DNA from: Gemmatimonadota bacterium | GTDB lineage: Bacteria; JBHIER01; G020348925 | DNA length: 64,000 nt | Reading direction: 5' to 3' | NCBI GenBank assembly: GCA_020348925.1 | Contig: CP070758.1 | Location: 2,556,259-2,620,258, forward strand | Shown: positions 17,964-56,793 of the stretch, piece by piece | How positions within the stretch are numbered: the stretch's first letter is position 1 | How the letters are laid out: each line of letters begins with the position of its first letter | Notes under the pieces: model-generated | What the model was told of the DNA's origin: nothing | Database searches by the model: none | What the model saw: only the letters and a program-made list of their open reading frames with translations | Position numbers and translations under genes: made by a program

Positions 17964-20942
17964 ATGTCCAAGTGTTTCCTTGCGACGCTGTTGGTTCTTC
18001 TCTCGTCACTCAGTTCGGCCGCTCTCGTTGAGGCCAGCCCGGATGTGCTGATTGCAGTTAATATTTCGGATTCCGGAGCGATGGGTACTTTGAGGGAAAT
18101 GCCGGTTTCTGTCAACTACCGGGGTTACGGATATCTCGTTGCCACGGTCGACACCGACGATATTGAGCGGCTGAAAAAGGCCGGAATTGAATATGAGGTT
18201 ATTGATGATGAGGCATGGTCCGAACCGTATTTTCTGATTACGAGACCGAAAGCGGAAGCGCTCGGTCAAATCCCGGATCAGGGGGAGGTTCTTTTTCAAA
18301 CCGAGAGTGAGGCCTTTGTTAAAATCACCCTGGAGGAAGTTCTTGAGTTCGGTCGAGCCGGCTTTCAACTGACGCGGATCTTTCCGAAATCGCTCCCCCT
18401 GTGGGAGGACCGAGCTGAAGAGAAGGGCCGTATTCGAGAGAACCTTCTCGCCAGCCGGCAGACGGAGGATGTCATCGGGGCCATCGTGAATCAGATATCT
18501 CAGGAGATCATGCGATCGGATGTGCAGCGGTTGCAGGATTTTCAGACGAGGCTGTGGGCCAGCGATTCGCTCTGGGCCTCTGCTCAATGGATCTACGACC
18601 GCTTCGTCGAGTACGGTTACACGGATGTCGTATTCGAGGATTTCGTCATATCCGGAAATGATCCTATCTGGTATCAGCAGGGATACGATGTCCCAGTGCG
18701 GAATGTCGTTGCGACAAAACCCGGCGTTCTCCATCCGGAAGACATCGTCATCATCGGTGGCCATTACGACTCGATTGTCTTTGACGGCACGAACCCGTTC
18801 GTCTGGGCTCCGGGTGCCGACGACAACGCCTCGGCCATAGCTGCTATGCTGGAGGCAGCCCGTATTCTGGCCGACGTCGATCTCGAGTGTACTGTCAAAT
18901 TTGCCTGCTGGACAGCGGAAGAGGTCGGCCTCTACGGCGCATGGTATCATGCAGCCCAGGCCTACGATCGTGGCGAGAACATTGTCCTGAATATCAACTT
19001 GGACATGATCTCGTACCAGCACGAGGGCGATCCTGAACGAGACGTCACCGTCTATTACAATCCCTCCGCCCAGGCCTATGCGGATCTGATGTCCGAGATG
19101 GCCAATACGTACACGACCCTTGTCCCTGTACCACGCTTTGCCGGCGGCGGCAGCGACCACGTGCCTTTCATGCAATACGGGTACGACATCGTCTACGCCG
19201 AGGAGGGTGATTTCTTTCTGACACCCCACTGGCATATAAGCACAGACGTTGTCGAAAACATGGACTTCGGCTATATGGGCGAGGTTGTCAAAATGAGTCT
19301 GGCCACTCTGGTTACTGTGGCCGGTCCTCCTGCAACATTGGTTGTGCCCGAACCTGTGCTTGGCTTCGAAAGTTACGTCATGGACGAAGATGATGAAGGC
19401 GGAAGTAGTGGTAATGAAAACGGATATTTCGATGCCGGTGAGACCATTCAGCTTTCCGTCACGCTCTCCAATCACGGTGATGCCCAGGCGACTGACGTCA
19501 CGGGTCGCTTAGCGATCGACGATCCCTATGTGACCGTTTTAGACGATGTGGTTCCTTATGAAAATATACCCCCTGGGGGAGCCGGAACGAGCCAGAGTCA
19601 GTTTCGGTTTCTCATATCGGAGGACTGCCCAAGTGGGCATTTTCTAAATTTCTCCCTTCATACGACAGCCTCAGGAGGGATTACGAATACGACGTATTTT
19701 TCGGTGCGTGTTATACAGCCGACCGTTGTCTATATCTCGTATGATCTTGAAGAGATGAGCGGGGACGGTGACGGGAATCCTGAACCCGGCGAGACGGTGG
19801 AGATGTCCCTGCTCTTGGGGAACGGCGGTTTGAGGGGTGCTTCGGGGATTGTTGCCGAACTCTCGACGGAAGATGGAGACATAACGGTTTTAAAGAGTGA
19901 GATTGTTTTCCCCGATATGGCCACTCAGAGTGTTGCTGAGAATACGGGCGAACGCTTCAGCTTCTCGGTGAATGCAGCGGCAGCACTTCATACTGTCGAT
20001 TTTACGGTTCGCCTGTCCGAGGGAAAAGGGTATTATCGGATCGATATTCCCATTCGCTGGCTTATGGGACAGGGTACGGTCCGACTTGTGGCTGACGACG
20101 GCGGGGGATACTTTGGCTACTACATCGAAGCGCTTCAAAATGTGGGCGTCCCCTTCGATATCGATGAAATCCAGGGCGTACCTTTGCCCCACTCCGTGGA
20201 TCTCAAGGATTATGCGGAGGTGATCTGGTTCACGGGTGCCGATGAGAGCAATACATTGACACCCGAGGATCAGAACGACCTGCAGGATTTTCTTGATAAT
20301 GGTGGGAGGTTGCTTCTTTCCGGATGTATGATCGGGTATGAGATCGGGACGACACCCTTTTACCGGAATTACTTGCACGGAAGCTACGTTTCCTTTATGA
20401 CGATGCTCCATCATCTCAACAGTGCGGCCTCGAATCCGGTCCAGAGTGACATAGACATTACTCTGGCTAGAGATGGGTATAACGGACAAGCTTTCACGGG
20501 GGAGGTTGATCCCATCAGCCCGGCCGTTTCGATTTTCGATTACGACCGAAGTACTGAGGAAGGACCTGGGATCGTCAGATCGAGCGGCAGTGGTGCCCTC
20601 GCTGTGGAAACCTCGGTATACAAGCTCGCCTATTTCTCTTTCGGTCTGGAAGGTATTGTCCCGACGGAGGATTGTGCGCAGGTGATTGCTGATGTGTTGG
20701 CGTGGTTTAAAGAGCCGGGTATCGATAAGGGGGACGTTGATGGCAACGGAGCGACGGACATCATCGATGCAGTTGTGGCGGTGAACATTGTTCTGGGTAT
20801 GCACCAACCCGATGAAGACCAAATGGTTCGGGCTGACATGAATTATGACGGAGCCATAGACATCATCGATGTCGTCAGAGTCGTCAACGCCGTGCTGGGA
20901 ACGAGTGGAAGAGCAGTTCATGACAATGACACGGATATGTAG
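17964..20942 (+). CDS. Secreted M28 metallopeptidase with GATase-like and dockerin modules, array member 1 (992 aa)
   Basis: A signal peptide (about 1-25, ending near ALVEAS) and a ~200-residue pro-region precede the di-zinc M28 domain (~235-455). Metal and catalytic residues are in place: GGHYDS (His267), GADDNAS (Asp287), TAEEVGLYG (Glu319/Glu320), NLDM (Asp347) and HWHISTD (His424). Two Ig-like modules follow (~468-580 and ~588-695), each opening with an acidic G-N-x-N-G-Y-x-D-x-GET motif. A Rossmann/GATase-like domain without a visible catalytic Cys spans ~702-915. A type I dockerin lies at ~922-980 with loops DVDGNGATDIID and DMNYDGAIDIID. It probably releases N-terminal amino acids from peptides outside the cell while held by a cohesin partner. 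This is the first gene of the array; the next starts 38 nt downstream, so they are probably co-transcribed. Confidence 0.9.
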   Translation: MSKCFLATLLVLLSSLSSAALVEASPDVLIAVNISDSGAMGTLREMPVSVNYRGYGYLVATVDTDDIERLKKAGIEYEVIDDEAWSEPYFLITRPKAEALGQIPDQGEVLFQTESEAFVKITLEEVLEFGRAGFQLTRIFPKSLPLWEDRAEEKGRIRENLLASRQTEDVIGAIVNQISQEIMRSDVQRLQDFQTRLWASDSLWASAQWIYDRFVEYGYTDVVFEDFVISGNDPIWYQQGYDVPVRNVVATKPGVLHPEDIVIIGGHYDSIVFDGTNPFVWAPGADDNASAIAAMLEAARILADVDLECTVKFACWTAEEVGLYGAWYHAAQAYDRGENIVLNINLDMISYQHEGDPERDVTVYYNPSAQAYADLMSEMANTYTTLVPVPRFAGGGSDHVPFMQYGYDIVYAEEGDFFLTPHWHISTDVVENMDFGYMGEVVKMSLATLVTVAGPPATLVVPEPVLGFESYVMDEDDEGGSSGNENGYFDAGETIQLSVTLSNHGDAQATDVTGRLAIDDPYVTVLDDVVPYENIPPGGAGTSQSQFRFLISEDCPSGHFLNFSLHTTASGGITNTTYFSVRVIQPTVVYISYDLEEMSGDGDGNPEPGETVEMSLLLGNGGLRGASGIVAELSTEDGDITVLKSEIVFPDMATQSVAENTGERFSFSVNAAAALHTVDFTVRLSEGKGYYRIDIPIRWLMGQGTVRLVADDGGGYFGYYIEALQNVGVPFDIDEIQGVPLPHSVDLKDYAEVIWFTGADESNTLTPEDQNDLQDFLDNGGRLLLSGCMIGYEIGTTPFYRNYLHGSYVSFMTMLHHLNSAASNPVQSDIDITLARDGYNGQAFTGEVDPISPAVSIFDYDRSTEEGPGIVRSSGSGALAVETSVYKLAYFSFGLEGIVPTEDCAQVIADVLAWFKEPGIDKGDVDGNGATDIIDAVVAVNIVLGMHQPDEDQMVRADMNYDGAIDIIDVVRVVNAVLGTSGRAVHDNDTDM

Positions 20943-20980: not shown

Positions 20981-23938
20981 ATGCGAAGTGTACGTGTCGT
21001 TTTGATGCTGATCGTCTTGTTCTGTTTGACCGGTCGTCCTCATGCGATTCTTCAGAACGGGAAACCGTATTTGGTGACGATCCCCAGGACCGATCCTGCC
21101 GTCACCTCATTCCTTCAGGATCAAAAGATCCCTGTCTGTTTTCAAACGGACGCATGGTATTTTGCCCAGGCGGGGGAGGCCGATCTTGAACGATTTGAGG
21201 CGGCAGGGCTTGCCTGGGATATCATCGATGACGAGGCATGGTCCGAATCGTACTTCTTTATCACGAAACTTCGTGGAGAGGACCTCGGAGAGATCCCTCA
21301 TCTGGGGAACGTCCTTTTTAGAACTGAGAAAGAAGCTCTTGTCAAAGCCGGTTTACGGCAAGCTCTGGAGTTTGCAGAGGCGGGCTTTCAATTAACCCGA
21401 ATCTTTCCGAATGCGCTTCCCCTTCGTGAAGATCAGATTGAAAAAGACGAACGTATCAAAGACAAACTGAGATTTCAAAGTCGAACGGACGATGTCATCG
21501 GGGCCATCGTGAATCAGGTCTCTTTGGAAATCGTTCAATCGTACGTTCAGCGGTTGCAGGATTTTCGGACGCGGTTCTTTGCCAGCGATTCGATCTGGGC
21601 GGCCGGACAATGGCTCTACGATCGGTTCGTCGAGTTCGGGTACACGGATGTTGTCTTCGACAATTTCGTTGAGTCAGAATACGGTGTGCCGGTCAGGAAT
21701 GTGATTGCCACGAAACCTGGTGCTCTCTATCCCGACAGCGTCATCATCATCGGTGGGCACTATGATACCATCGTGTACGATGCCTCGGACTATTTTGTCT
21801 GGGCACCAGGGGCGGATGACGATGCATCGGGTGTCGTCGGGGTGCTGGAAGCGGCTCGAATTTTGGCCAATGTCGATCTTGACTGCACGGTGAAATTCGC
21901 CTGTTGGACTGCCGAGGAAATAGGTTTGTACGGAGCTTGGCATTACGCGACGGAGGCCTATGATCGGAGAGAGAGAATCGGGTTGTACATCAATTATGAC
22001 ATGCTTGGAAACCTGGACGAGAACGATCCGTCGAGAAATGTCACCATTTATTTGAATGCCACTGCCCAAGCATATGCCGATCTCATGGCTGAGATGGCCA
22101 CCGAATATACCAGTTTGGTCCCCGAGCAGTTTCCGGCTTTTACCGCCGGCAGCGATCATGCTCCTTTCATGTTACATGGATACAACATCCTCTACGCGCA
22201 GGAGGGTGATTTCAGCCCGTACATCCATACTGGTTTTGATGTTACAGATAATATGAACTTCCCTTATATGTGTGAAGTCGTTAAAATGGGGCTGGGTACT
22301 TTGGCCGCAGTTGCCGGTCCTCCAGCTTCAATCTCTGTTACCGAACCAGTTATTACTCTCGAAAGTTACGACATTGATGATGATGCGCAGGGTGGGAGTA
22401 TCGGGAACGGGAACGGCTACTTGGATACAGGTGAGACAATTGAAGTGACAATCGCTTTGTATAATTACAGTGATTCAGATGCACATGGGGTCAGGGCTCG
22501 CCTTGTAACAGATGACGCATATGTCTCCATTGTTCACGATGAGATCTCTTTTGGAGATATTCCCAGCGATGGAATGGGTTCAAGCCATGATCAATTCCTT
22601 TTCGTTATTTCAGAAGATTGTCCTGTGGGCCATTTCTTGGATTTTTCTGTGGAGGTCACTACGACAGATGGATTTGGTTGGATGAGCTATTTCACCGAGC
22701 GCGTTGTGCAGCCTTCTATTTTGTATGTCACATTCAGTATTGAAGACACCGATGGAAATGGCAATGGAGCCGCTGATCCAGGTGAGACAGTAGATATGTA
22801 TCTTCTTATGGGGAATGGTGGATTGAGAAGTACCTCTGGAACGGTGATTGAACTTGCGACCGAGGATCCTGATGTAACGATCATTGACAATGAGATCATG
22901 TTTCCAGATATGGACATTGGCACTGTGGCTGAGAATACGGATGATGCCTTCGTCTTTTCCCTTGACGAGGCGGCGGACGTTCACACTGTCCCCTTTACGC
23001 TGCATATTTCAGAGGGACAGGGATATTATCAGATCAGCATACCTTTTTATGTGCTCATAAAGCAGGGAACAGTCCGACTGGTTGATGACGACGGCGGGAC
23101 GGACAAACTCTATTTCTACCTCGAAGCCCTCCAACTCGCTGGCGTTCCGTATGACATCGAACACATTAACGGACTGGCCATGCCCCATTCCGATGATCTG
23201 GACGATTATTCAGAGGTGCTCTGGTATACGGGTACTGTGGAGACCAATACACTGACAACGGACGAGCAGAGTGATATCGAGGCCTTTCTCAATGGAGGCG
23301 GGAGACTTCTCCTGTCCGGAAGTATGATCGGTTACGAGATCGGCGATTCCCCGTTTTACAGAAATTATCTGCACGGAGATTACGTCTCCTTTCTGACGCT
23401 GCTTCATCATCTGAACGGTGTCCCTTCAAATCCCGTCGTCGGCGATATGGATATAACCTTGGCCACGACTGGGCTTTGTGCTCAGGGGTTTGCCGGTGAG
23501 ACGGATCCTATCAGTCCGGCCGGTTCAATTTTCGATTACGATCGAAGTACGCAGGAGGGACCTGGGACCGTCAGATCGAGCGGGAGTGGGGCCTTGGCCG
23601 TGGAGACCTCGGTGCACAAACTCGTCTACGTCTCCTTTGGTGTCGAAGGTATTGTGCCTGTTGAGGACATGGCCCAGGTGCTGGCTGATGTCTTGGCGTG
23701 GTTCAAGGAGCCGGGGGTGGACAAGGGCGATGTGGATGGGAACGGATCGACGGACATCATCGATGCGGTCGTGGCGGTGAATATTGTCCTGGGCATGCAT
23801 CAACCGGATGAGGGGCAGAGAGCTCGGGCAGACATGAACTACGACGGGTCGATAGATATTATCGATGTTGTAAAAGTTGTCAACGCTGTGCTGGGTAGTA
23901 GCGGTAAAGTCTCTGCTATTGGTTCCAAAGACATGTGA
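20981..23938 (+). CDS. Secreted M28 metallopeptidase with dockerin, array member 2 (985 aa)
   Basis: ATG 20981 is preceded by AAAGGGGGG. The layout matches array member 1: signal peptide, pro-region, M28 domain, two Ig-like modules (~460 and ~580), GATase-like domain (~694-908) and dockerin (~915-975). Zinc-site motifs are intact: GGHYDT (His260), GADDDASG, TAEEIGLYG (Glu312/Glu313), NYDM and the final HTGFDVTDN. The dockerin-coding DNA contains a 93-nt block (23726-23818) identical to one in the gene at 25428, evidence of recent gene conversion. The specificity is unknown; changes around the last His ligand, compared with HWHxxTD in its neighbours, may alter it. Confidence 0.9.
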   Translation: MRSVRVVLMLIVLFCLTGRPHAILQNGKPYLVTIPRTDPAVTSFLQDQKIPVCFQTDAWYFAQAGEADLERFEAAGLAWDIIDDEAWSESYFFITKLRGEDLGEIPHLGNVLFRTEKEALVKAGLRQALEFAEAGFQLTRIFPNALPLREDQIEKDERIKDKLRFQSRTDDVIGAIVNQVSLEIVQSYVQRLQDFRTRFFASDSIWAAGQWLYDRFVEFGYTDVVFDNFVESEYGVPVRNVIATKPGALYPDSVIIIGGHYDTIVYDASDYFVWAPGADDDASGVVGVLEAARILANVDLDCTVKFACWTAEEIGLYGAWHYATEAYDRRERIGLYINYDMLGNLDENDPSRNVTIYLNATAQAYADLMAEMATEYTSLVPEQFPAFTAGSDHAPFMLHGYNILYAQEGDFSPYIHTGFDVTDNMNFPYMCEVVKMGLGTLAAVAGPPASISVTEPVITLESYDIDDDAQGGSIGNGNGYLDTGETIEVTIALYNYSDSDAHGVRARLVTDDAYVSIVHDEISFGDIPSDGMGSSHDQFLFVISEDCPVGHFLDFSVEVTTTDGFGWMSYFTERVVQPSILYVTFSIEDTDGNGNGAADPGETVDMYLLMGNGGLRSTSGTVIELATEDPDVTIIDNEIMFPDMDIGTVAENTDDAFVFSLDEAADVHTVPFTLHISEGQGYYQISIPFYVLIKQGTVRLVDDDGGTDKLYFYLEALQLAGVPYDIEHINGLAMPHSDDLDDYSEVLWYTGTVETNTLTTDEQSDIEAFLNGGGRLLLSGSMIGYEIGDSPFYRNYLHGDYVSFLTLLHHLNGVPSNPVVGDMDITLATTGLCAQGFAGETDPISPAGSIFDYDRSTQEGPGTVRSSGSGALAVETSVHKLVYVSFGVEGIVPVEDMAQVLADVLAWFKEPGVDKGDVDGNGSTDIIDAVVAVNIVLGMHQPDEGQRARADMNYDGSIDIIDVVKVVNAVLGSSGKVSAIGSKDM

Positions 23939-24333
23939 GATCTGATGTGCGGGTTACGTGCAATTTTTGAAACATAGAGGAGTAATACCGTAGAAATGTT
24001 TTAACAAGTGAGTTGAATGGAGTATTATCCCTGTCTCGTCGTTGGTTGAAAGTCCACTTATTTCGAGGTGTAAAATCTCGTTTTCACAATGTAAAAAATT
24101 CAAAAACTGTCCGTTTTCGGATACACCCTGTACCACCAGCGGACACTTCACATAGTGCGTTCTGTGCGGAACCGTGTCTACTGTATCACAAGAGAACGTG
24201 AACGTACCGGCATGTTCTTTGCTTTTTCTACACTAAGAATGTATGTTGAGAGCATTCTCTGAATACACGGCAGAATGAAGGGCACTTTTGTGCTCTTCAG
24301 TTGAACGTTTTCATGTGTTCGAAGGAGGTGACC
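23939..24333. other. Intergenic region with leader hairpin
   Basis: The region contains no supported gene. A 9-bp hairpin with a TTTT loop (GAAGGGCAC / GTGCTCTTC, one G-U pair) lies at 24277-24298, just upstream of the ribosome site of the M28 pseudogene. AAGGAGGTG at 24322-24330 is that ribosome site. Confidence 0.5.
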
Positions 24334-25274
24334 ATGATGAAGTGTTTTCATCTTCTTCTCACTCTGGTACTTCTTTCTTGCCTTGTCGTTGCCGTCGAAG
24401 CATCGCCACAGGAAGCACACCCCTATCTCATCAAAATATCCCGGGCTGATTCGAACGTCGTTACGGTTCTTCAAGAACGAAATATTCCTGTCTATTTGAA
24501 ATTGAAGAAATGGTACTTCGCAGGAGCACATGCACCCGATTTCATTTATCTCAGGGAGAAGGGAATAGAGTATGATGTGATTGATGAGGAGGCGTGGTCG
24601 AAACCGTACTATTTAATAACCAGACCTCGGAGAGGGGAGCTCGGTGTTATTCCCGAGGTCGGCAGAATTCTTTTTCAGGAGGATAAGGAGGCGATTCTCA
24701 AAAAAGGTAGCAATCAATTTCTCGAACTGGTCAGTGCCGGGTATACATTGACGCGGCTTTTTCAGAGATCGCACCCAATCTTGGAAAGGAAACACAGTAC
24801 ATTACCTTCAATTGTCTGGGAAGCCGGGTCAGACGACGTAATCGAGACTATCGTCAATAATGTTTCCGAGGACAGTCTTCGATCATATGTTCAGCGTTTG
24901 CAGGATTTTCAGACCCGGTATTTCGAAACAGATTCGATCAAGGCATGTGCTCGCTGGTTCCGAAACACCCTTCTCGATTTCGGATACACCGATGTTGTCT
25001 TCGATACGTTAACCAATCAGCCACTTGATCATGCAATCTGGAACGTAATCGCCACCAAGCCCGGTTTTTTCTATCCTGACAGTATCGTCATAATAGGTGG
25101 CCACTTTGATTCCATCGTTCGTGATGGGACGAATCCGTATGTCTGGGCGCCCGGGGCAGGCGATAACGCCTCCGGGACGCGGTGGTGACGGTCAATATCG
25201 TCTGGGGTATGCATGAGCCTGATGAGGGGGAAACGACACGGGCTGATTTGCAGTACAGGTATGATATTCTATAA
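24334..25274 (+). pseudogene. M28 metallopeptidase-dockerin pseudogene with internal deletion
   Basis: A good ribosome site and ATG 24334 lead into a signal peptide, the usual pro-region and the first part of the M28 domain (GGHFDSIV, then GAGDNASGT). The frame then ends at TGA 25186-25188. Immediately after the break, in another frame, the sequence reads VVTVNIVWGMHEPDEGETTRAD up to TAA 25272-25274. This is the middle of a dockerin and is closest to the dockerin of the gene at 28520. So roughly 2 kb (the rest of M28, the Ig-like and GATase-like domains and the dockerin start) has been lost, and the rest has drifted. A GGGACG motif occurs at both expected deletion ends (microhomology). The first 295 residues may still be translated, but they lack the EE, Asp and final His ligands, so no activity is expected. 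Confidence 0.85.
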
Positions 25275-25427: not shown

Positions 25428-28373
25428 ATGAGGACAAAAGTGCTCACCGTGCTGTCACTTCTGTTTTTGACAGTGGTTGCTTTCTGTCCCAAGGGAGTGG
25501 ACTCTGCAGATGCTGACGATCTGTTCATGATCTCTGTATCACTCCATAACAGGGACTACCTGCAGCATGTCAAAAACACAAGTGTATCATACGGCCACAT
25601 AGACAATCAGACGGCCGTCGTCCTTGTTCGGGAGAAAGACCAGTCAATATATCAAAAGGAGGGAATCGCCTATGAGATTTTAGGTACAGTAACAGATAAC
25701 TGGCAATACGTTCTCGTCTCTTTTCGGGATCAGTACCAAAAGAAAAAGCTTGAGCACATTGGACGAATTGTTACAATCGGTGAAAACCGGGCTCTCATCA
25801 GAGTCAAAAACGATTGGGATCGTTTCGGGCCGAAATATGGAATTGAGTTGATCAACGCGTTTTTTATTCCCCAGGTGAAATCTATTCGGAAACTGTCCGA
25901 TGTCTCCCCTTCCCCTCTTCTCAATGACATCATCCACCAGGTATCGCCTGTCATGATTTACAATTACATCCTTGATCTTCAAAATTTCCAGACGCGCTTC
26001 GGCTATGCTGATGGGTGCAGCCTGGCGGCGGATTATCTCAAAGATCAGTTCGAAAGCTGGGGACTGGATGTGACCGAGCACTGGTTTATCAATGAAGGGT
26101 GGATCGAGGTCGGATATCCGGCCGATCCTCAGCGAAACATCATCGCCACGCTCCCTGGTACGATATATCCGGATGAGATTGTTGCCATATGCGCCCATTA
26201 TGATTCCCGGTCGGATGATAATTGGAACTTTGCGCCAGGAGCCGACGACGATGCCAGTGGTACGGCGGCCGTGCTTGAGATGGCCCGCATTCTGAGCCAA
26301 TATGGTTCTGAAAGGACTCTGCAGTTTATATGCTTTGGTGGGGAGGAGCAGTGGATGATAGGGTCGTACGCCTATGTTGAAGAAAGGAAAGCTGCCGGAG
26401 ATAATTTTGTGGCCGTTATCAACAATGATATGATCGCATATACTGCGGACGGTCAATTCGAGGATATCGAAGTTGATTGTATTCCGGAGACCGAATGGCT
26501 GGCCGACGAGGTTATGGCTCTCGCGTCAGATTTCGTGACATATCCTGTGTCGAAGAACGTCGGCTGGGAGAATGTTTCCGATCATACACCCTTCTGGGAG
26601 AATGAATACCCGGCCATCGAATTGGCGGAAGACGAGGCCGATGATGTTTGGGGTGGTACGAATCCCTTCTACCATACTACGGGAGATGTGATCGAAACGT
26701 TGAACATGGAATTTGCCACGCAGATTGTGAAAATGAATGCTGCAGCCCTGGCATCATTAGCAGGTGTCGAAGTGTCCGGTGCTGTTGTGGTCTGCGCGGA
26801 GCATACAATGGATGACGACGATCTCGGTGAAAGCCTGGGAAATGGAAACGGATACGTGGATCCCGGAGAGGCTATCGAACTTGGATTGTCGCTGAATAAT
26901 ATAGGTCACGTTGATGTTTCAGGAGTGAGTGCGACGCTGGAATCGGAGGATGACCATGTTATCATCGTGCGAAACACGGTTGAATTCGGTGATATACTTT
27001 CGGGTGGTTCGGCTACGGGGCAGAATACCTACAGCGTTCACGTCTCCCAGGATTGCCCCAACGGCCATCAGATACTCTTCTCCGTCACAATTCAAGATGA
27101 TCAGTCAAGATCGTGGGGAGGTGGTTTTGTTGTCGAAGTGCTTCAGCCTACTTTCGTGTTTCAAGCTCACTCCTTTGAGGAAGTGGAAGGGAATGGCAAC
27201 ACTGTGATCAATCCTGGTGAGACAATAAACCTGTTTGTTCTCATAGAAAATGCCGGTTTGCGTGGTGCTTCTGGCATAACGGCTCGGCTTGAAACGAATG
27301 ATTCTGACATAACGATTGCGGACAGCGAGGCTCTTTTGCCCGACATAGATGTGACGGGTGTTGCTGAGAACAGAAACGATCCTTTCACGTTTACGGTGAA
27401 TGAGGAAGCTGACTCCCATTCGGTAACCTTCACCATGCATCTGACCGAAGGTCAGGGCTATTACCACATTGACATGACTGTTCAATTGATCATCGGACAG
27501 GGAAAGATTCTCTTCGTGGTTGACGACGAGGGGAATGACAATCAAAATTATTACATGGAGGTCTTTGAGCTTTTGGGTATTTCATATGACGTCTGGGATG
27601 TACAGGGGAGAGCCAAGGTTGTTTCCGATACACTTCTAAACTATCCAGAAGTGATTTGGTTTACAGGGCCTGTCGAGAAAAACACGTTGACTCCTGAGGA
27701 TCAGAGTGCGTTGGATACGTATCTCAATGGTGGTGGAAGAATTTTACTGTCCGGAAACCTTATCGGTTCGGATATAGGAAATACATCTTTTTACAGAAAT
27801 TTTTTGCACGGATACTATATCTCCTTTATGACCATGCTGCACCACCTCAACGGGACGCTCAATAATCCGGTGAGTGGCGAAGTGGATATTGCACTGGCAT
27901 CAACGGGGAATACAGCCCAGACTTTTGCTGGGGAAACCGATCCAATAAGCCCGGCCATATCAGTATTCGATTATGATCGGGATACTGAAGAGGGACCCGG
28001 TCTCATCAGGTCAAGTGGCAGCGGCGCTTTGGCGATGGAAAACTCGATCTATAAAGTTGTCTATTTCTCCTTTGGAGTAGAAGGAATTGAACCTCTGGAT
28101 GATCGGGTGCAGGTTTTGCTGGATGTGCTCACATGGTTCAAGGAGCCGGGGGTGGATAAAGGCGATGTGGATGGGAACGGATCGACGGACATCATCGATG
28201 CGGTCGTGGCGGTGAATATTGTCCTGGGCATGCATCAACCGGATGAGGGGCAGATGGCACGGGCCGACATGAATTACGATGGAGCGATTGACATCATCGA
28301 TGTCGTGAAGGTCGTCAACGCTGTGCTGGGAACCAGCGGGAAAGCCTCTGTTGTTCATTCTAAAGACATGTAA
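25428..28373 (+). CDS. Secreted M28 metallopeptidase, subfamily B, with dockerin (981 aa)
   Basis: The N-terminus differs from most array members: signal peptide MRTKVLTVLSLLFLTVVAF, then a pro-region starting DDLFMISVSLHNRD. The M28 site is complete but of another subtype: CAHYDSR (His257), GADDDASGT, GGEEQWMIGS, NNDM and FYHTTGD. A conserved SDHTPFWENEYPAIELAEDE segment lies between the last two. Two Ig-like modules, a GATase-like domain (~690-903) and a dockerin (~911-970) complete it. Only the gene at 41380 shares this head. The dockerin DNA carries the 93-nt block (28161-28253) identical to member 2. The changed active-site surroundings suggest a different peptide preference. Confidence 0.9.
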   Translation: MRTKVLTVLSLLFLTVVAFCPKGVDSADADDLFMISVSLHNRDYLQHVKNTSVSYGHIDNQTAVVLVREKDQSIYQKEGIAYEILGTVTDNWQYVLVSFRDQYQKKKLEHIGRIVTIGENRALIRVKNDWDRFGPKYGIELINAFFIPQVKSIRKLSDVSPSPLLNDIIHQVSPVMIYNYILDLQNFQTRFGYADGCSLAADYLKDQFESWGLDVTEHWFINEGWIEVGYPADPQRNIIATLPGTIYPDEIVAICAHYDSRSDDNWNFAPGADDDASGTAAVLEMARILSQYGSERTLQFICFGGEEQWMIGSYAYVEERKAAGDNFVAVINNDMIAYTADGQFEDIEVDCIPETEWLADEVMALASDFVTYPVSKNVGWENVSDHTPFWENEYPAIELAEDEADDVWGGTNPFYHTTGDVIETLNMEFATQIVKMNAAALASLAGVEVSGAVVVCAEHTMDDDDLGESLGNGNGYVDPGEAIELGLSLNNIGHVDVSGVSATLESEDDHVIIVRNTVEFGDILSGGSATGQNTYSVHVSQDCPNGHQILFSVTIQDDQSRSWGGGFVVEVLQPTFVFQAHSFEEVEGNGNTVINPGETINLFVLIENAGLRGASGITARLETNDSDITIADSEALLPDIDVTGVAENRNDPFTFTVNEEADSHSVTFTMHLTEGQGYYHIDMTVQLIIGQGKILFVVDDEGNDNQNYYMEVFELLGISYDVWDVQGRAKVVSDTLLNYPEVIWFTGPVEKNTLTPEDQSALDTYLNGGGRILLSGNLIGSDIGNTSFYRNFLHGYYISFMTMLHHLNGTLNNPVSGEVDIALASTGNTAQTFAGETDPISPAISVFDYDRDTEEGPGLIRSSGSGALAMENSIYKVVYFSFGVEGIEPLDDRVQVLLDVLTWFKEPGVDKGDVDGNGSTDIIDAVVAVNIVLGMHQPDEGQMARADMNYDGAIDIIDVVKVVNAVLGTSGKASVVHSKDM

Positions 28374-28519
28374 GAATTAATATTTTATGAGCTTAGTGTA
28401 TTTACAGTGTAAGTCATACTATATGAAATGTATTGACGAGTGAAGAGCATTTCTTGGATAAAAGGTACCTGAGAGAATGTTCATGAGTTGAGCATTTTAA
28501 ATTGCTGAGGGAGGTGACC

Positions 28520-31707: not shown

Positions 31708-31855
31708 TAATGCGCCGTAATGGGAGAGGCGACATTGGGAGTATTCATGCCTCCCGGAGTGCTCCCGGTATTCCAAAGGGCGTCATTGTATCAAACCATT
31801 GTGCAGCATTGCTCTTTGGTCCGAACTTCGAATCTCTTGGAAAGGAGATGAGGTG

Positions 31856-41328: not shown

Positions 41329-41356
41329 GAGACAGCACCTCTGTCCGTGCTGTCTC
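41329..41356 (+). promoter_or_regulatory. Leader hairpin of M28 subfamily B, copy 2
   Basis: GAGACAGCAC and GTGCTGTCTC pair perfectly over 10 bp with an 8-nt loop. ACTCTTTGAAAGAGAGG and ATG 41380 follow. It is homologous to 25377-25403 before the paralogue at 25428. Confidence 0.55.
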
Positions 41357-41379
41357 ACTCTTTGAAAGAGAGGATACCG

Positions 41380-44328: not shown

Positions 44329-44490
44329 AGTGGTATCGCACTGAGAATGTGTTTAAAGTGAAAATATTGAATTCCGAATGAATCATGTGAGCGGCGACCC
44401 CTGACGTGCATTGTTTCGCCATTCTTTTGTTACATAATGAGATACCGTCATCGAAGAGATTGCGTCGGACGGCTTGAAAGGAGAAAACCC

Positions 44491-47442: not shown

Positions 47443-47472
47443 AATTGACACTCTTTGAAAAGGGGGGACGTT

Positions 47473-49893
47473 GTGCACCGTGTTATTACTGTTCTTGTAC
47501 TTATGCTTTTTGCAACCGCTACTCTCACCCATTCGGAGGTTAAGAAACTTGTACGGGTTGACTTGAGCAATCAATCGGAAGCAAAAATCCTCGATTTCAT
47601 GCGTCTTCATCCTGATGTAACCTTCTACGGACGGGAGGGACGACTGGTGGACGTGGTGGCACCGCTTTCCCACCTTGAAGCGTATCGCAACCTTGGATTT
47701 CCCATTGAAGTTCAGATTGAGGATGTCGATGAATATACGCAGGCATTGAAGCAACAGGGATACTTCGATCATTTTCACGATTACGATAGGGCCTTGGCTG
47801 AAATGCAGGCTGTTGAAGCCGCCCATCCTGAGATTGCACAACTCTATGATATTGGGGATGGCTGGGAGAAAACCCAGGGTCTGGCCGATCGGGACATCTG
47901 GGCGATCAAGATTTCCGATAATGTAACCACGGAGGAAGCTGATGAGCCGGAGGTGCTGTATATGGCCTGTCACCATGCCCGGGAGATCATTACCCCGGAA
48001 ATTGTCCTCTATTTTATGAACTACCTCGTGGATAACTACGGCAGTGATCCTGAGGTGACGGATATTGTGAACAATCGTCAACTCTGGCTCATACCCCTCG
48101 TAAACCCTGACGGTCATGCGGTCGTGTTTACGGGGACTGACTGGCGCAAGAATAAGCGGGATAATAATGGAAACGGCCAATTCGATCTCAGCACCGATGG
48201 TGTTGATCTCAACAGGAATTACGGCTTCGCTTGGGGGTATGATAATATCGGCTCCAGTCCTGATCCTGCGAACTGGTTGTATCGAGGTCCATCACCCTTT
48301 TCAGAGCCGGAGACACAGGTCATTCGGGATTTTGTCGAAGCCCACAGCTTTGTTATTTCACTTTCCTATCATTCGTACAGCAACTTGTGGCTGTACCCGT
48401 GGGCGTATCGGGCTCAAAACACGCCGGATCATGAGATATTCGTCGAGATAGCAGATAGTTGTGTCGCTTACAACGGATATGAACCGGGGAACACCTTATC
48501 GGGTACGATTTACGTCGTTAATGGTGAAACTGATGATTGGATGTACGGTGAGCAGACGACGAAATGCAAGACATACGCGTTCACTCCCGAGGTGGGTGGC
48601 CCTGCGGACGGTTTCTACCCGGACACATCGCGGAGAATACCCCTTATCCTCGAAAACCTGGGGCCGAATCTGTATGTGGCCCGGGCAGCCGAAAAATACA
48701 CGCAACCGGCCATTTCCTATCTTGGTTTCAGCTTGGAGGAGGTCTCCGGTAACGGGGACGGTATCCTCGATCCTGGAGAGATGGTGAATCTCTTCATCCG
48801 AATCGAAAACAAGGGGTTGGGAGGTGTCTCGGAGATATCGGTTGTTCTTGAGACAGCCGATACTGATGTAACGATCAGCCACAGTGAAGTCACGTATCCA
48901 GGTATGGGGTGCAGTGCTCTCGCCGAAAACTCGGAGGACCCCTTCACCATTTCGGTGAGCGATGAAGCACAGCCGCATGGTATCGTCTTCTCACTGCATC
49001 TCTCAGAGATTGAGGGAACGTATCAGGAGGATGTGACGTTTCAGTTGCTCATCGGCCAGGGAACGGTATTACTGGTTGCTGACGATGGTGGGCTTGATAA
49101 CGAAAATTACTACATTGATGCTTTTCAACACCTGGGGATTCCCTACGAGATCCTGGACGTTCATGGAATGAGCAAGCCTCCCTCCAACGTTTTATTCGAC
49201 TACTCAGAGGTGATCTGGTTCACAGGATCTTCGGAGCAGAACACGCTGACGCCGGAGGATCAGAGTGATCTTGCGGCGTATCTCAATAATGGCGGACGGT
49301 TGCTTCTGTCCGGAAGTATGATCGGTTATGAGATCGGAACCACACCTTTTTACAGGAATTACCTCCACGCCAGGTTTGTTTCCTTTTTGACACTGCTTCA
49401 TCATCTCAACGGAACGCCAACGAATCCCATCGGCGGTGGGATGAATATTGCATTGGCTTCAGGTGGAAGCAATGGACAGGGATTTGCCGGAGAGACCGAT
49501 CCCATCAGCCCGGCTGTTTCCGTATTCAATTATGACCGGAGCACCGAGGAGGGACCTGGAATCGTCTCTTCAAGTGGCAGCGGGGTCTTGGCTGTTGAAA
49601 CGGCAGAGTACAAGGTGGTGTACGCGTCCTTCGGTTTGGAGGGGATCGAGCCTTTGGAGGACCGAGTGCAGGTGTTGGCGGATGTGTTAGCGTGGTTCAA
49701 GAAACCCGGCGTGGATAAGGGTGATGTGGACGGCAACGGCACGACGGACATCATCGACGCTGTGATGGCGGTCAATATTGTGTTGGGATTGCATCAGCCG
49801 GAAGAGGATGAGATTGCCCGGGCGGACATGAACTACGACGGAGCGATTGACATCATCGATGTGGTCAATGTCGTCAACGCTGTTCTTGGATGA
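47473..49893 (+). CDS. Secreted M14 zinc carboxypeptidase with GATase-like domain and dockerin (806 aa)
   Basis: GTG 47473 is preferred: AAAAGGGGGGAC lies just upstream and the signal peptide (HRVITVLVLMLFATATLTHS) begins there. An earlier TTG at 47455 is in frame. After a ~90-residue pro-region comes the M14 domain (~95-405): HHARE with zinc ligands His168 and Glu171, DGVDLNRNYGF with the substrate-binding Asn-Arg, SYHSYSN with His300, and FTPEVGG with the catalytic Glu373. It should remove C-terminal residues, complementing the aminopeptidases around it. One Ig-like module (~415-520), the GATase-like domain (~528-742) and a dockerin (~749-806) complete it. It starts 30 nt after the M1 gene, so the two are probably one operon. 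Confidence 0.9.
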   Translation: MHRVITVLVLMLFATATLTHSEVKKLVRVDLSNQSEAKILDFMRLHPDVTFYGREGRLVDVVAPLSHLEAYRNLGFPIEVQIEDVDEYTQALKQQGYFDHFHDYDRALAEMQAVEAAHPEIAQLYDIGDGWEKTQGLADRDIWAIKISDNVTTEEADEPEVLYMACHHAREIITPEIVLYFMNYLVDNYGSDPEVTDIVNNRQLWLIPLVNPDGHAVVFTGTDWRKNKRDNNGNGQFDLSTDGVDLNRNYGFAWGYDNIGSSPDPANWLYRGPSPFSEPETQVIRDFVEAHSFVISLSYHSYSNLWLYPWAYRAQNTPDHEIFVEIADSCVAYNGYEPGNTLSGTIYVVNGETDDWMYGEQTTKCKTYAFTPEVGGPADGFYPDTSRRIPLILENLGPNLYVARAAEKYTQPAISYLGFSLEEVSGNGDGILDPGEMVNLFIRIENKGLGGVSEISVVLETADTDVTISHSEVTYPGMGCSALAENSEDPFTISVSDEAQPHGIVFSLHLSEIEGTYQEDVTFQLLIGQGTVLLVADDGGLDNENYYIDAFQHLGIPYEILDVHGMSKPPSNVLFDYSEVIWFTGSSEQNTLTPEDQSDLAAYLNNGGRLLLSGSMIGYEIGTTPFYRNYLHARFVSFLTLLHHLNGTPTNPIGGGMNIALASGGSNGQGFAGETDPISPAVSVFNYDRSTEEGPGIVSSSGSGVLAVETAEYKVVYASFGLEGIEPLEDRVQVLADVLAWFKKPGVDKGDVDGNGTTDIIDAVMAVNIVLGLHQPEEDEIARADMNYDGAIDIIDVVNVVNAVLG

Positions 49894-50311: not shown

Positions 50312-53300
50312 ATGGTGCACCGTTATTACGGAAGAACCTTCGTTCTTTCGGTTCTTGTTGTGTGTCTGCTCTTGGCGCATGGCAGGAGCATCTCGGGGGA
50401 GATAACGACCTCGATCTCTTTTTCACCGTCGGATCTCTCAGTGACTGAGAATGGTGAGTACGATGTGCTCTCTATGACCGATTGTGATATTTCGAGGGAG
50501 GTGGGGGAACCGCAGATCCCGGTAACACTCCTTCACGTAGTCTTGCCTGCGGGGGCAGACGTTAACCGCGTCGAGGTGCTCTCAACGCAAAGTGAGGCGC
50601 TTGAAGGGATCTTTCGCCTGTACCCTGTTCAGCCGCCTCAGCCGTACGGTGCGCCCGGGAAACCGACGATCGAAATCGAGTTTTTCCGGCCCAAAGCAGA
50701 TGTCTATGGATCCACCGAATTGTATCCAACGGAGATTGTGGAGGCGGGGAAAGCCGGCTCCAGGGCCGGTTATCGATTGGCCGGGCTGCTCGTCTATCCG
50801 ATTCAGTACATTCCGGCCGAGGGAAAGCTTCTCTTTCACAGGCGCATCGACGTCCGGATTCATTATTCCTCGAATCAGGTTGAACGGAGATCCTTCAAGA
50901 AACCTGCGGCTCGATCCCATGCTGTTCTGCGGCGGTCCGTCGAACGGGCCGTGCTCAACCCTGAGGATGTGTCTGATCGCTCCGGTTTGAGGGGTGATGT
51001 TTTTTCCGCCGTTCCACCCGGTTCTTACGAATATGTGATCGTTACTGATGAGGACTACGCCGCAGATTTTCAACCGTTGGCCGATTGGAAGACGAAGAAA
51101 GGGGTACCGGCGAATACTGTGACGACAGACTGGATCTACGCAACCTACCCGGGTGTTGATCATCAGGAACAGATTCGCAATTTCATTCGCGATGCCTATG
51201 AGAATTGGGGCACACTCTGGGTTCTCTTAGGGGGTGACTGCAGTGACTTGACTTATGGCCCGAGCCCGCCGCAGGCGCACGTGGTTCCGGCGAGAATAGT
51301 CTGGGCCATGGATTGCGAATTTGACCCCGAGAATCATCCCGATGAGAACGACATCCGGGCGGACTTGTATTACTCGGATCTTGACGGGACGTGGGACGAT
51401 AACGGCAACGGCATCTATGGTGAAGTGGCGGACAACGTCGATCTCTACCCAGACGTTTATGTCGGCCGTGCTTCGGTCAATACGACGGAAGAAGTGAACA
51501 CCTTTGTGAACAAAATTCTGACCTACGAGAAACCCACAGTCACGGACCGGTTCAAGAAGCTCCTTTTCCTGGGAGAGATCATGTGGACCGATCCCTACAC
51601 CGATGGCGGTGAGGGGAAGAATATGATCGACGACGAGTGCATTCCGCCCAGATTCGATCCCATCACGAAACTCTACCAGTCGGAGGGGAACGAAAATACC
51701 GAGTCCGTCATGGCCGCTGTGAATGAGGGGCATCACTTCATCAATCACGACGGCCATTGTATGTGGTATATTATGGGTATGGGCAACGGATCCTTTTATG
51801 CTCAGCATATGGATGCCTTAACGAACGACCCGGCATACTCCATCATTTACTCCATCGGGTGCTGGCCGGCGGCCTTCGACTACGACTGCGTGGCCGAGCA
51901 CTTTATCACCAATCCTCACGGTGGTGGTGTGGCCTTTGTCGGGAACTCTCGGTATGGTTGGGGATCGCCCGGCAATCCCGGTTACGGCTATTCGGATCGG
52001 ATCGATCACCGGTTCCTCTATAACATCTACATGGACGATATCTACCATATTGGCGAGGCCATCGATCTGGCCAAGGCGTATTATGTTCCCTACTCTCAAA
52101 TGGCCAACGTCTACCGCATTCATCAGTATCAGGTCAATCTTCTGGGAGATCCGGAGATGCCCATCTGGACCGATGATCCCGCGGAGTTGACAGTCATCCA
52201 TCCGTCCAGTGTCGTCGTCGGGTCGAACCGGGTTATCGTGACCGTCACCGACGGGACCGAGCCTGTCGGTGATGCCCTGGTATGCCTGCACAAAGGAAGC
52301 GATGTCTATACGTTTGGAAGAACCGATGCTCAGGGACAGGTTTCCCTCGATATCACGCCTTCTTCAAACGGAACAATGGATATCACCGTCACCGGACACA
52401 ATGTGCTGCCGTTTGAGGGAACGATCACCGTCACTGGTTCCGGTGCCCAATTGAGCCATGTCGGTTGCGATCTTTCCGATGACGGTGGAAACGGCGACGG
52501 CCTCATGAATCCGGGCGAGACCGTCTCCCTCGGTGTAGCTTTCGCAAATCAAGGAAATGAAACAGCCTATGGCGTCACTGTGACAATGTCTTCGGATGAC
52601 GATCTCGTCACCGTTCTTGATGGGGATAAAACATGCGGTGATGTGGCATCTGGAGAGGAGATTCCTGCACACCTTGACGATTTTTCATTCATGATTTCGT
52701 CCGAGGCGACCAACGGTCATGTCCTGTATGTGACCTTTACCCTAACCGATCAATCGAGCAACGTCTGGACGAGTACCCTGGGTCTGCCGGTCTGTACGCC
52801 GGTGCTCAGCTATGTTGCCCATGAGATTGACGACGCCGGGGGAAACGGGAACGGCTTCGCCGAGCCGGGGGAGACGGTTGATATGGTGGTCACTTTTTCC
52901 AACACGGGTTTGGGCAACGCCGTGGGTGTCACGGCAACCATTGCGACCAGCACTCCGCACGTCACTATTGCTGGAAATCCGCTCAATGTGGGGAACATTG
53001 GGCCTGACGAAGAAAATCAAGGGACCTTCTCCGTCACCATTGATCACAGCTGTCCGGCCATATATTTCCCGATCCTGACCTTTACACTGTCGACACAGGA
53101 TGGCTATACTTTTGAAAGCGGTTGCCTCGTGTCCATCGGGCCCATGGGGTTCGGCGACAACATGGAGAGTGGCCAGGGCGAGTGGACTAACGAGGGAGAA
53201 GGGAATATGTGGCATCTCAGTGATTATCGGTCCCACTCAGGGAACTGGAGCTGGTACTGCGGCGATGAACAGACCCACCAGTACGACTTTGGTTGGGACT

Positions 53301-54874
53301 GCCCTCTGGTGACGCCCGCTTTTGGTTTGAGCCCCCATTCCACCCTCTCCTTCTGGGTTTGGTTTGAAGTTGCCACCTACGGTGTGTTCGGCATCACCGT
53401 CGAGGTCAAATCGGGTTTGGGCTGGAAGAAGATCGATTTTATCGGCAGTGGTGGAGCCCTGGGGCCCAGTGGCGAGACGGAAGTGAGATGCGATTGGATG
53501 AAATACGAGTACGACCTCTCCTCGATTCCCGTCGGGGAGGCTCAGCTGCGGTTTCGATTTTTCAGTATACCCGACTCCTACTGGGACGGTGAGTACATCT
53601 GGGAGGGGGTTTATCTTGATGACGTCACAATTACCCCGTCGGGACAGGCGGATCTTGAATCGATGCAGCCTGATATCCGGTATGCCTCTTTTTCGATCGA
53701 GGACAGTGAAGGAAATGGTGACGGGCTCGTCGATCCTGGCGAGCAGTGTCAGCTGTTGGTCACCCTTCACAACCAAGGATTACGAGACGCCTCCAACGTC
53801 GTTCTTTATCTGAGCACGGACGATCCGGATGCGAACATTACGGATGGTGAAGCCTTCATCGAAAACATCTATATCGGCGATACAATTGAGAATGTGGCCA
53901 ATCCGTTCAGTCTCCAGACAGGGCCAGAGGTGTCGCTTCATGTTATTCCCTTCACGCTGAGCATATTTGAGGGTGACGCCTATTACTCGACGGTGGTACA
54001 GTTTCATGTGCGCATGGGTCAGGGGAAGGTGCTCATTGTGGAGGATGACAACGGTTCAGCGTTATCATCCTACTATGAGGATGCACTCCAGGCTGTTTTT
54101 GTGCAGTATGACATGTGGGACACGGAAGAGGATGATCTCATTCCCACCCATGTTCTCGAAGAATACGATGATGTGCTCTGGGTAACCGGTCCAACCCAGG
54201 AGACGCTGAGTGAGGACGAACAGCAGAATCTCCGGACTTTTCTGGACAATGGTGGGAACCTGCTTCTGTCCGGAAACATGATTGGGTATGCGCTGCGCAA
54301 TACCCCGTTTTTTTCGAATTACTTGCATGCCGATTACGTGAACTTTATGACCAGGCTTCATCACCTCAATGCGGTTCCTGGGAATCCGATTCTTCAGGAT
54401 ATGGACATCACAATAGCCGCATCCGGGCAGACTGGACAAGGATTTACCGGGGAGATCGATCCACTTCCGCCTGCGTTCTCATTCTATACTTACGACCGGA
54501 CCACAGAGGAGGGACTGGGTGATATTCGTTCCTCGGGCAGTGGTGCCGTCGCCTTCGGAAACGGGACGTACAAAGTTGTCTATTTCAGCTTCGGCATCGA
54601 GGGCATTGAGCCGCCCGAAACGAGAACGGCCGTGCTGGATGCCATACTGAACTGGTTCCGGACGACCATTGAGGTTGGGAATGGAGATGTGAACCTCGAC
54701 GGAAACGTTAACATCATCGATGTCGTCTGGGCGGTAAACATCGTTCTGGGAACGCACCAGCCGACCGAGCAGGAAAGAAAGAACGCCGACTTGAACGGTG
54801 ACGGGCAGGTGAACGTCATCGACGTTATCGGAATCGTCAATCTTATTCTGCACGGAGGAGCTGCCGCGAAATAA
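50312..54874 (+). CDS. Secreted C25 (gingipain-like) cysteine peptidase with multiple Ig-like domains and dockerin (1520 aa)
   Basis: A signal peptide (~1-29) and a gingipain-type pro-region (~30-235; GEPQIPVTLLHVVLP, AGYRLAGLLVYPIQY) precede the C25 catalytic domain (~245-630). His482 lies in FINHDGHCMW and the nucleophile Cys517 in SIIYSIGCWPAAFDYD. Their spacing of 35 residues is close to that of Arg-gingipain. YVGRASV and the HQYQVNLLGDPEMPIW block at the domain end are also typical. After the Ig domain of the C25 fold come two Ig-like modules (~710-910), a MAM/jelly-roll-like module (~920-1115, GFGDNMESGQGEW...YLDDVTI), another Ig-like module, a GATase-like domain (~1230-1450) and a dockerin (~1458-1515). 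It probably acts as an endopeptidase that opens proteins for the exopeptidases of the array. Arg or Lys preference cannot be read from the sequence. Confidence 0.9.
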   Translation: MVHRYYGRTFVLSVLVVCLLLAHGRSISGEITTSISFSPSDLSVTENGEYDVLSMTDCDISREVGEPQIPVTLLHVVLPAGADVNRVEVLSTQSEALEGIFRLYPVQPPQPYGAPGKPTIEIEFFRPKADVYGSTELYPTEIVEAGKAGSRAGYRLAGLLVYPIQYIPAEGKLLFHRRIDVRIHYSSNQVERRSFKKPAARSHAVLRRSVERAVLNPEDVSDRSGLRGDVFSAVPPGSYEYVIVTDEDYAADFQPLADWKTKKGVPANTVTTDWIYATYPGVDHQEQIRNFIRDAYENWGTLWVLLGGDCSDLTYGPSPPQAHVVPARIVWAMDCEFDPENHPDENDIRADLYYSDLDGTWDDNGNGIYGEVADNVDLYPDVYVGRASVNTTEEVNTFVNKILTYEKPTVTDRFKKLLFLGEIMWTDPYTDGGEGKNMIDDECIPPRFDPITKLYQSEGNENTESVMAAVNEGHHFINHDGHCMWYIMGMGNGSFYAQHMDALTNDPAYSIIYSIGCWPAAFDYDCVAEHFITNPHGGGVAFVGNSRYGWGSPGNPGYGYSDRIDHRFLYNIYMDDIYHIGEAIDLAKAYYVPYSQMANVYRIHQYQVNLLGDPEMPIWTDDPAELTVIHPSSVVVGSNRVIVTVTDGTEPVGDALVCLHKGSDVYTFGRTDAQGQVSLDITPSSNGTMDITVTGHNVLPFEGTITVTGSGAQLSHVGCDLSDDGGNGDGLMNPGETVSLGVAFANQGNETAYGVTVTMSSDDDLVTVLDGDKTCGDVASGEEIPAHLDDFSFMISSEATNGHVLYVTFTLTDQSSNVWTSTLGLPVCTPVLSYVAHEIDDAGGNGNGFAEPGETVDMVVTFSNTGLGNAVGVTATIATSTPHVTIAGNPLNVGNIGPDEENQGTFSVTIDHSCPAIYFPILTFTLSTQDGYTFESGCLVSIGPMGFGDNMESGQGEWTNEGEGNMWHLSDYRSHSGNWSWYCGDEQTHQYDFGWDCPLVTPAFGLSPHSTLSFWVWFEVATYGVFGITVEVKSGLGWKKIDFIGSGGALGPSGETEVRCDWMKYEYDLSSIPVGEAQLRFRFFSIPDSYWDGEYIWEGVYLDDVTITPSGQADLESMQPDIRYASFSIEDSEGNGDGLVDPGEQCQLLVTLHNQGLRDASNVVLYLSTDDPDANITDGEAFIENIYIGDTIENVANPFSLQTGPEVSLHVIPFTLSIFEGDAYYSTVVQFHVRMGQGKVLIVEDDNGSALSSYYEDALQAVFVQYDMWDTEEDDLIPTHVLEEYDDVLWVTGPTQETLSEDEQQNLRTFLDNGGNLLLSGNMIGYALRNTPFFSNYLHADYVNFMTRLHHLNAVPGNPILQDMDITIAASGQTGQGFTGEIDPLPPAFSFYTYDRTTEEGLGDIRSSGSGAVAFGNGTYKVVYFSFGIEGIEPPETRTAVLDAILNWFRTTIEVGNGDVNLDGNVNIIDVVWAVNIVLGTHQPTEQERKNADLNGDGQVNVIDVIGIVNLILHGGAAAK

Positions 54875-54929: not shown

Positions 54930-54971
54930 CAATTTTATTCGTATTTAATGCTGCTAATTTTTCAAACACCT

Positions 54972-55056: not shown

Positions 55057-56793
55057 TTAGGGACAGTCATCCAGTCCCAGAATGAGGTTCACGATTTTCA
55101 CGGCATCCAGGATATTGACAACACCGTCGCCGTCACAATTGCCCGAGGGTCCGTTACAATCGATTCTCAGGGATTGATCCGGTTCAGGTTCGTGTAATTC
55201 GAGAATCGTGTTTATGACGAAGAGGGCGTCCATGATGTCGACGACGCAATCGTGATTCGCATCGCCTTTTATGTTTTCACAGACGGTGATCGTCAGGGCG
55301 TCAGTATCTTTTGCCAGAGGGTCGGATTGAGCGGTGGCCGTGAGCGTGACCGTGTTCACCATTCCCTCCGTGGCAGTTGTAGGAATAAGACACATGATCT
55401 CAAGGGTGGTATCCGTGCATGCCTGAAGAGAGAGCGCAAATGAGTCGGGATTCAAAGTCCAACCTCGAGTATCTGTCGCTGTCACCTCGTATGTGAATGT
55501 CCGGGCCTCGGGATTCGTAATGGCGAAGGAAGGGAAGAGAGTATCTCCGATTGATCCCCCTAAAGTGGAAACAGCCAGGACTGAGACTTCGGGAGGGTGG
55601 ATGGATTCGGGAATTTCCCGGGTGATACAATGGATGGCGCCGCCGAAGCGTGGGGCGAAGTGGAGACAGCTGATGGGAATAATCTCATAATCCGGTAGAG
55701 CCGTTTGATACGTCGCAAGTGCTTCTGAGTCGGTGGGACTGTCGTACACCGGCACAAAGACCTGCTTGTCGAGGATGAGTGAATTCACATATGTGCAATA
55801 ACTTGAAACCGAATTCACTTTGTACATGGGAACGCGAAGGACGTCAAATGTGCTTCCAGTGTAAGTCTTCAGCGTGCTGAAAATAGTGGCAGCATTTTCC
55901 AGGAGAGCGTACTCCACAGCCTCGGTATCCATAAATTTTGCCACTAAAACTGTGTTGGCATTTAAAAATTTGGCCCACATGTCAATATGGGCAAGATTTG
56001 CGCATTCCTCAAACACCTGAAAAACGAGGAACCGGTCACAACCGAAGTACGTTGCCATCAAAGAATCTGCCTGTTCAGAGGTTAACTCTGGATTTTTGTT
56101 GTGAAAGTAGTCTGTGGAAACAAGTAATCCCTTGCCGTCCGTCATAAAATTTCCCCCGTCGTATTTAAAATCGAAATCGTAGCAATCGAAGCAGTAGTGT
56201 TGGCAAAAAAAGGGAGGAAGACCGTCAGATGCAGTTAATCTTTCGATATATTTTGTATCAATTCCCACCAAACGGTCGTCTGAATCATAGACGAAAAAGG
56301 GTCCGCAGTCCCGCATCCAGAATAGATTACTTGAATACGTGAAAAATGAGATATTATCCAAAGCGCAATGCTCATTGATAAGCAGACTCTCGACGGTATT
56401 GAAATTCTGTTCATTGCGCACACCAATGAATATCGTGTTTTCAGGATCGATGTGTTGGACCATCGATAATAGAATTCTGTCCAATACTCCAGCAAATTCA
56501 TGATCCCAGTAAATGAGGACGCCCTGGCAGGGCTCGAACTCGGCCGGAGTTCGGACGGGTGAAGAAGGTGGCTGTTGAATGCCCTCGAATTCAACCGTCA
56601 TCGGGGTAATAGGAAATTCTCTGTTCAAAAATTCTTTCAACCAGGGCAGAGCTTCGAGTTCGATGTGTTTGTAGCCTGTTGTTTCTGTTGCAGTTGAGGA
56701 TACCGTGGTGCTTACAAGCGGGTCGGGAGAAACGTATACTGAGCTGAGTATGATCAAACACACCACGGTATTTCGAGCGGATCTGGGAATCAT
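55057..56793 (-). CDS. Secreted arginine-deiminase-superfamily enzyme (PAD_porph / agmatine deiminase type) with dockerin (578 aa)
   Basis: The start is ATG at 56793 on the minus strand, preceded by GGAGGACAAGGAAAA; the 38 codons upstream have no ribosome site. A signal peptide (MIPRSARNTVVCLIILSSVYV) is followed by the alpha/beta-propeller deiminase domain (~65-400): WMRDCGPFF, YDGGNFM, LAHIDMWAKF and GGAIHC with the catalytic Cys389. An Ig-like module (~405-500) and a dockerin (~507-578) follow. Agmatine deiminases are cytosolic and lack such additions, so this resembles the secreted peptidylarginine deiminase of Porphyromonas more closely. It would convert arginine groups (peptide C-terminal arginine or agmatine) to citrulline or carbamoyl groups with release of ammonia. 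It is convergent with the C25 peptidase gene, which echoes the gingipain/deiminase partnership. The substrate is inferred. Confidence 0.82.
   Translation of the reverse strand: MIPRSARNTVVCLIILSSVYVSPDPLVSTTVSSTATETTGYKHIELEALPWLKEFLNREFPITPMTVEFEGIQQPPSSPVRTPAEFEPCQGVLIYWDHEFAGVLDRILLSMVQHIDPENTIFIGVRNEQNFNTVESLLINEHCALDNISFFTYSSNLFWMRDCGPFFVYDSDDRLVGIDTKYIERLTASDGLPPFFCQHYCFDCYDFDFKYDGGNFMTDGKGLLVSTDYFHNKNPELTSEQADSLMATYFGCDRFLVFQVFEECANLAHIDMWAKFLNANTVLVAKFMDTEAVEYALLENAATIFSTLKTYTGSTFDVLRVPMYKVNSVSSYCTYVNSLILDKQVFVPVYDSPTDSEALATYQTALPDYEIIPISCLHFAPRFGGAIHCITREIPESIHPPEVSVLAVSTLGGSIGDTLFPSFAITNPEARTFTYEVTATDTRGWTLNPDSFALSLQACTDTTLEIMCLIPTTATEGMVNTVTLTATAQSDPLAKDTDALTITVCENIKGDANHDCVVDIMDALFVINTILELHEPEPDQSLRIDCNGPSGNCDGDGVVNILDAVKIVNLILGLDDCP

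Follow-up and report, generated by a model that had tools for sequence, protein, structure and literature searches.

The window analysed here, 64,000 nucleotides (contig positions 2556259-2620258) of a complete-looking genome on a single 5.04-Mb contig, contains a tandem array of peptidases whose intact genes all end in type I dockerins. We consider it probable that these are exported enzymes on a common chassis that originally ended in a T9SS sorting tail and now ends in a dockerin, and that they plug, in a calcium-dependent manner, into cohesins of surface proteins in which the T9SS tail was retained, either directly or via three-cohesin adaptors with a terminal dockerin of their own. The outer surface would then show a mixture of amino-, carboxy- and endopeptidases (M28/M1, M14 and C25, respectively) plus a deiminase. 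Docking to T9SS-tailed cohesins would restore surface display of enzymes that lack a signal of their own, and the released peptides may serve as food.

Composition of the array

Pfam searches of the window ORFs bore out the content given in a preliminary description of this DNA: eight intact and one broken M28 peptidase, one peptidase each of families M1, M14 and C25, and a deiminase. The intact M28 genes, all on the forward strand, are M28a (17964-20942; Pfam M28, 2.6e-33; Dockerin_1, 1.3e-6), M28b (20981-23938), M28c (25428-28373), M28d (28502-31480), M28e (31799-34822), M28f (35061-38168), M28g (38361-41303) and M28h (41347-44328). Each consists of a peptidase head, the chassis and a dockerin. 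The same layout is seen in the M1 peptidase (44437-47442; motif HELAH-18-E), the M14 carboxypeptidase (47455-49893; Pfam M14, 4.4e-70) and a gingipain-type C25 peptidase with a propeptide (50312-54874; Pfam C25, 3.3e-66), which follow on the forward strand. A Porphyromonas-type peptidyl-arginine deiminase with a dockerin (55057-56907; Pfam PAD_porph, 9e-47) lies on the reverse strand. Dockerin_1 scored over the cut-off in all intact array genes, as the description of type I dockerin tails had implied, and the broken M28 retains a remnant. This broken copy (24301-25188, forward strand) comprises the N-terminal part and the beginning of the catalytic domain (only positions 1-37 of Pfam M28 are matched), inside which it stops; the dockerin remnant DAVVTVNIVWGMHEPDEGETTRAD then follows in another frame (25173-25245, forward strand, limits approximate; three-frame translation), which fits an internal deletion.

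Directly upstream of the array is an ORF of 1391 amino acids (13357-17532) with an N-terminal membrane segment, a hydrophobic C-terminus and no Pfam match. Also upstream are a PLP enzyme resembling tyrosine decarboxylases (10617-12554) and, outside the array range, a protein with LRR and TSP3 domains and a dockerin of the general pool described below (614-4210, forward strand; Pfam). A T9SS type A sorting tail at 34-285 belongs to a protein cut by the window start.

All eight M28 heads have kept their zinc ligands and catalytic residues, and the active-site residues of the M1, M14, C25 and deiminase proteins are likewise intact, judged from motifs, alignments and reading of the sequences; when tested, the catalytic and metal-binding residues of families M28, M1, M14 and C25 were present. 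The M28 heads fall into two lineages, which share 15-36% identity across their N-terminal and catalytic parts. M28c and M28h make up the second lineage and are 86% identical in the catalytic part; the closest solved structures to M28h in the PDB are leucine aminopeptidases. That the M28 family has grown to eight intact copies, with heads that diverge, suggests that substrate range has been under selection.

A shared chassis under unrelated heads

The M28 tails are 51-72% identical among themselves. Identity to the M28 tails is 50-66% for M14, 42-47% for C25 and approximately 35% for M1, so that four unrelated heads (M28, M14, C25 and M1) sit on one chassis. A structure model of moderate confidence (pLDDT 69) indicates two Ig-like domains and an α/β domain, with the dockerin next; an example is M28d residues 586-921 (30257-31264, forward strand). 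We propose that the α/β domain is glutamine-amidotransferase-like. A fold search with the same model returned generic Ig-like matches alone.

The chassis is present in approximately 30 ORFs in the 1.65 Mb of the genome that were scanned. The heads are often peptidases (M28, M14, C25, M1, S8, M6 and C39), and other chassis-bearing proteins contain Omp28, β-helix or Kelch domains. At one such locus (L129, 6494-10321), two neighbouring Omp28-domain proteins each have a chassis and a dockerin. Beyond this genome, the chassis profile had matches in 70 of the 290 genomes sampled, where the heads are M28 and other peptidases. In one of these (G102, contig C13, 17401-28495), three or more chassis genes lie near one another; tandem chassis expansion is therefore not unique to the present genome.

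Dockerins of the array and the genome

The dockerin assignments are far beyond chance, with Pfam E-values reaching 1e-10, and reversed ORFs gave zero matches to our local dockerin and cohesin models. A profile of the array dockerins retrieved mainly dockerin-bearing chains from the PDB, plus one EF-hand protein. The calcium-ligand pattern is kept in loop 1 of all ten array dockerins measured and in loop 2 of nine of them. In a dockerin tree, the dockerins of seven array M28 copies, of M14 and of a remote M28 group tightly, within 0.30 substitutions per site of M28d; the remaining dockerins are at least 1.24 substitutions per site from M28d. The divergent dockerin of M28g and those of M1, C25 and the deiminase fall in the general pool. 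Duplication or gene conversion homogenising the tails accounts for the tight group equally well as selection for one socket. The near-identical dockerins in seven M28 copies and M14, together with the one pseudogene, could be taken to mean that the array is a recent amplification of little functional meaning, produced by tandem duplication, gene conversion of the tails and decay. We regard this as extremely improbable: the heads have diverged to 15-86% identity and all have kept their catalytic residues, which needs long-term selection.

The genome has at least 148 Pfam dockerins, a lower bound obtained from 150 scored candidates, and our local model finds 221 dockerin ORFs in 1.65 Mb. In 168 dockerin proteins scanned outside the window, the heads encountered most often are non-catalytic: FG-GAP, PKD, LamG, TSP3 and HYDIN-type Ig-like domains. 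A cellulosome in the strict sense has mainly enzymes for plant polysaccharides, along with cellulose-binding modules; here, no glycoside hydrolase is among the 25 commonest families in each of three batches of dockerin heads. The predominance of non-catalytic heads is what would be expected if the cohesin-dockerin network were a structural surface layer or an adhesive matrix, in which the peptidases are minor passengers, engaged for example in processing surface proteins, and there is no food-degrading machine. We consider this unlikely, given that head scans count at least 17 more dockerin peptidases of several families outside the window, and that the divergent heads of the eight intact M28 copies point to selection on substrate range. 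Among the stretches examined, the window holds the largest peptidase cluster of the dockerin system.

A dockerin in the place of a sorting tail

Evidence on a tail replacement comes from chassis proteins of other organisms, sampled as 19 external loci, one per genome. Eighteen had a readable end, and reading these ends by eye we found a T9SS-type tail in 17; none of the 19 loci has a dockerin. One of these proteins, L169, is a full-length M28 homologue of M28b (28% identity over 937 columns); the homology stops where the dockerin of M28b starts, and L169 has a T9SS tail there. The array proteins end at or just past the dockerin, and all lack a T9SS tail of their own. Most simply read, these comparisons mean that this lineage exchanged the T9SS tail for the dockerin, a direction favoured by the wide spread of the T9SS-tailed form. 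The homologue comparison indicates that one and the same enzyme can have a dockerin substituted for its T9SS sorting tail.

Comparison with close relatives was attempted by two routes: a phylum-wide search of the sampled genomes returned the present genome alone, and a contig scan yielded only one distant Zixiibacteriota M28 and unrelated clostridial dockerins. A literature search, covering mostly papers outside subscription journals, found none on dockerins replacing T9SS tails.

Separately, 78 listed ORFs have a dockerin shortly ahead of a T9SS-like tail; 44 of the 78 are of a 'VNHIL' dockerin class, which is perhaps a separate plug type.

Cohesins and scaffoldins outside the window

A search of the window ORFs found no cohesin, in agreement with the preliminary description, which had placed the scaffold elsewhere if it existed at all and had named a complete genome free of cohesins as the outcome that would refute its reading. 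The genome-wide search gave 81 cohesin matches, 73 of them over the Pfam cut-off, in 50 ORFs of the 5.04-Mb contig; a cellulosome-like assembly is therefore well supported. The proposed cellulosome-like machine for protein stands as far as its scaffolds are concerned; because the commonest dockerin heads genome-wide are non-catalytic, the system looks more like a general surface-assembly system than a machine only for protein. Fifteen of the 50 cohesin ORFs are multi-cohesin scaffoldins with two to five Pfam-cutoff cohesins each. Our local model counts 82 cohesin ORFs in 1.65 Mb, a liberal number for which the Pfam count is the safer substitute. These are divergent cohesins, with 8e-8 for the best PDB match, and some could be non-binding Ig-like domains; the PDB chains matched by a profile of 14 of them were all cellulosomal or cohesin chains.

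Many genomes have dockerins without cohesins, and the dockerin here occupies the position of the secretion signal in the homologues. Both points would suit dockerins that act as a calcium-dependent stabilising cap or as a tail for a secretion route, with no cohesin binding. The cohesin number of this genome makes that very unlikely, as it is an outlier and includes multi-cohesin proteins with dockerins of their own. Among 58 other sampled bacteria, 12 have a cohesin over the cut-off, with a maximum of 11 matches, and 12 further chassis-carrying genomes have 0-14 cohesin matches each.

The closest cohesin genes begin 6.6 kb beyond the window end, in a cohesin-T9SS cluster at contig positions 2626821-2635763. 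Its proximity to the array was weighed and judged not significant: with approximately 50 cohesin genes in 5 Mb, a distance of 14 kb could be chance. The cluster and the array do not form one operon, and they are separated by an iron-sulphur/cysteine gene cluster on the opposite strand. Another cluster (4334161-4340957) comprises genes for one protein of six cohesins and a T9SS tail and for two proteins that each have three cohesins and a terminal dockerin (cohesin numbers from the local model). This layout is that expected of anchor and adaptor scaffoldins, and suggests a tiered assembly into which the array dockerins would plug.

Anchoring and export

The scaffoldin anchor that we found is the T9SS sorting tail, where the preliminary description had pointed to SLH-type anchors; scaffoldins of cellulosomes in the strict sense are anchored by SLH domains or by sortase. 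A type A sorting tail closes approximately 40 of the 50 cohesin ORFs, and T9SS tails (TIGR04183-type) number at least 150 in the genome, which also has SprA (1e-44) and the sortase PorU (E-value, 6e-222). A signal-peptide-like start is present in 90% of complete ORFs with a C-terminal dockerin, compared with 51% of other ORFs. Type II secretion was considered as the route across the outer membrane, but the search for secretins gave a single one, which looks pilus-like from its sequence and neighbours. That the array enzymes are without a T9SS signal and that the sole secretin looks pilus-like count against the proposed surface display. We tentatively suggest, while thinking it somewhat unlikely, that the dockerin enzymes already bind T9SS-tailed cohesin proteins before they leave the periplasm and, as their passengers, pass the outer membrane through the SprA channel. 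If true, cohesin-dockerin pairing would stand in for both the secretion signal and the anchor. The main alternative is a separate export route.

Comparison with known systems

The genome is a source of peptidase modules that could be used for surface display in diderms, and the system makes it testable how cargo without a T9SS signal gets to the cell surface. The gingipains and the peptidyl-arginine deiminase (PPAD) of Porphyromonas are secreted by T9SS and carry the T9SS tail themselves. The same C25 and PAD_porph heads are found here, with a dockerin where the T9SS tail stands in Porphyromonas.

The cohesin-dockerin repertoire of the present genome is among the larger ones recorded. Pseudobacteroides cellulosolvens has a repertoire of comparable size, with 78 cohesins, 212 dockerin ORFs and tiered scaffoldins (PMC5590126). 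Dockerin-bearing peptidases by themselves are not unusual, as 71 of its dockerins are on putative peptidases (PMC5590126). P. cellulosolvens differs in being clostridial, in its SLH-type anchoring, and in having about half of its dockerins on carbohydrate-active enzymes. The planctosome of Nemodlikiaceae (Planctomycetes) is a cohesin-dockerin assembly proposed to degrade polypeptides, with peptidases of families M14 and M12B (PMC6461901). Compared with the system described here it is simple, is tethered by a lamin-tail domain, and no T9SS has been described for it.

The closest precedent is Ca. Stygibacter (Cloacimonadota), for which T9SS-anchored scaffoldins with dockerin peptidases have already been proposed (PMC8542988). 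Its predicted scaffoldin has tandem cohesins and a C-terminal T9SS-type sorting domain, and dockerins are found on C25 and S8 peptidases; there is one large scaffoldin with carbohydrate-binding domains, and the few enzymes include glycoside hydrolases (PMC8542988). A cohesin scaffoldin with a T9SS-type tail and dockerin-tailed peptidases, C25 among them, are thus common to both organisms. The genome described here differs in its approximately 50 cohesin genes, its tiered adaptors, its tandem M28/M1/M14/C25 array and the documented difference in tails, and it is the tail swap that constitutes the main new evidence.
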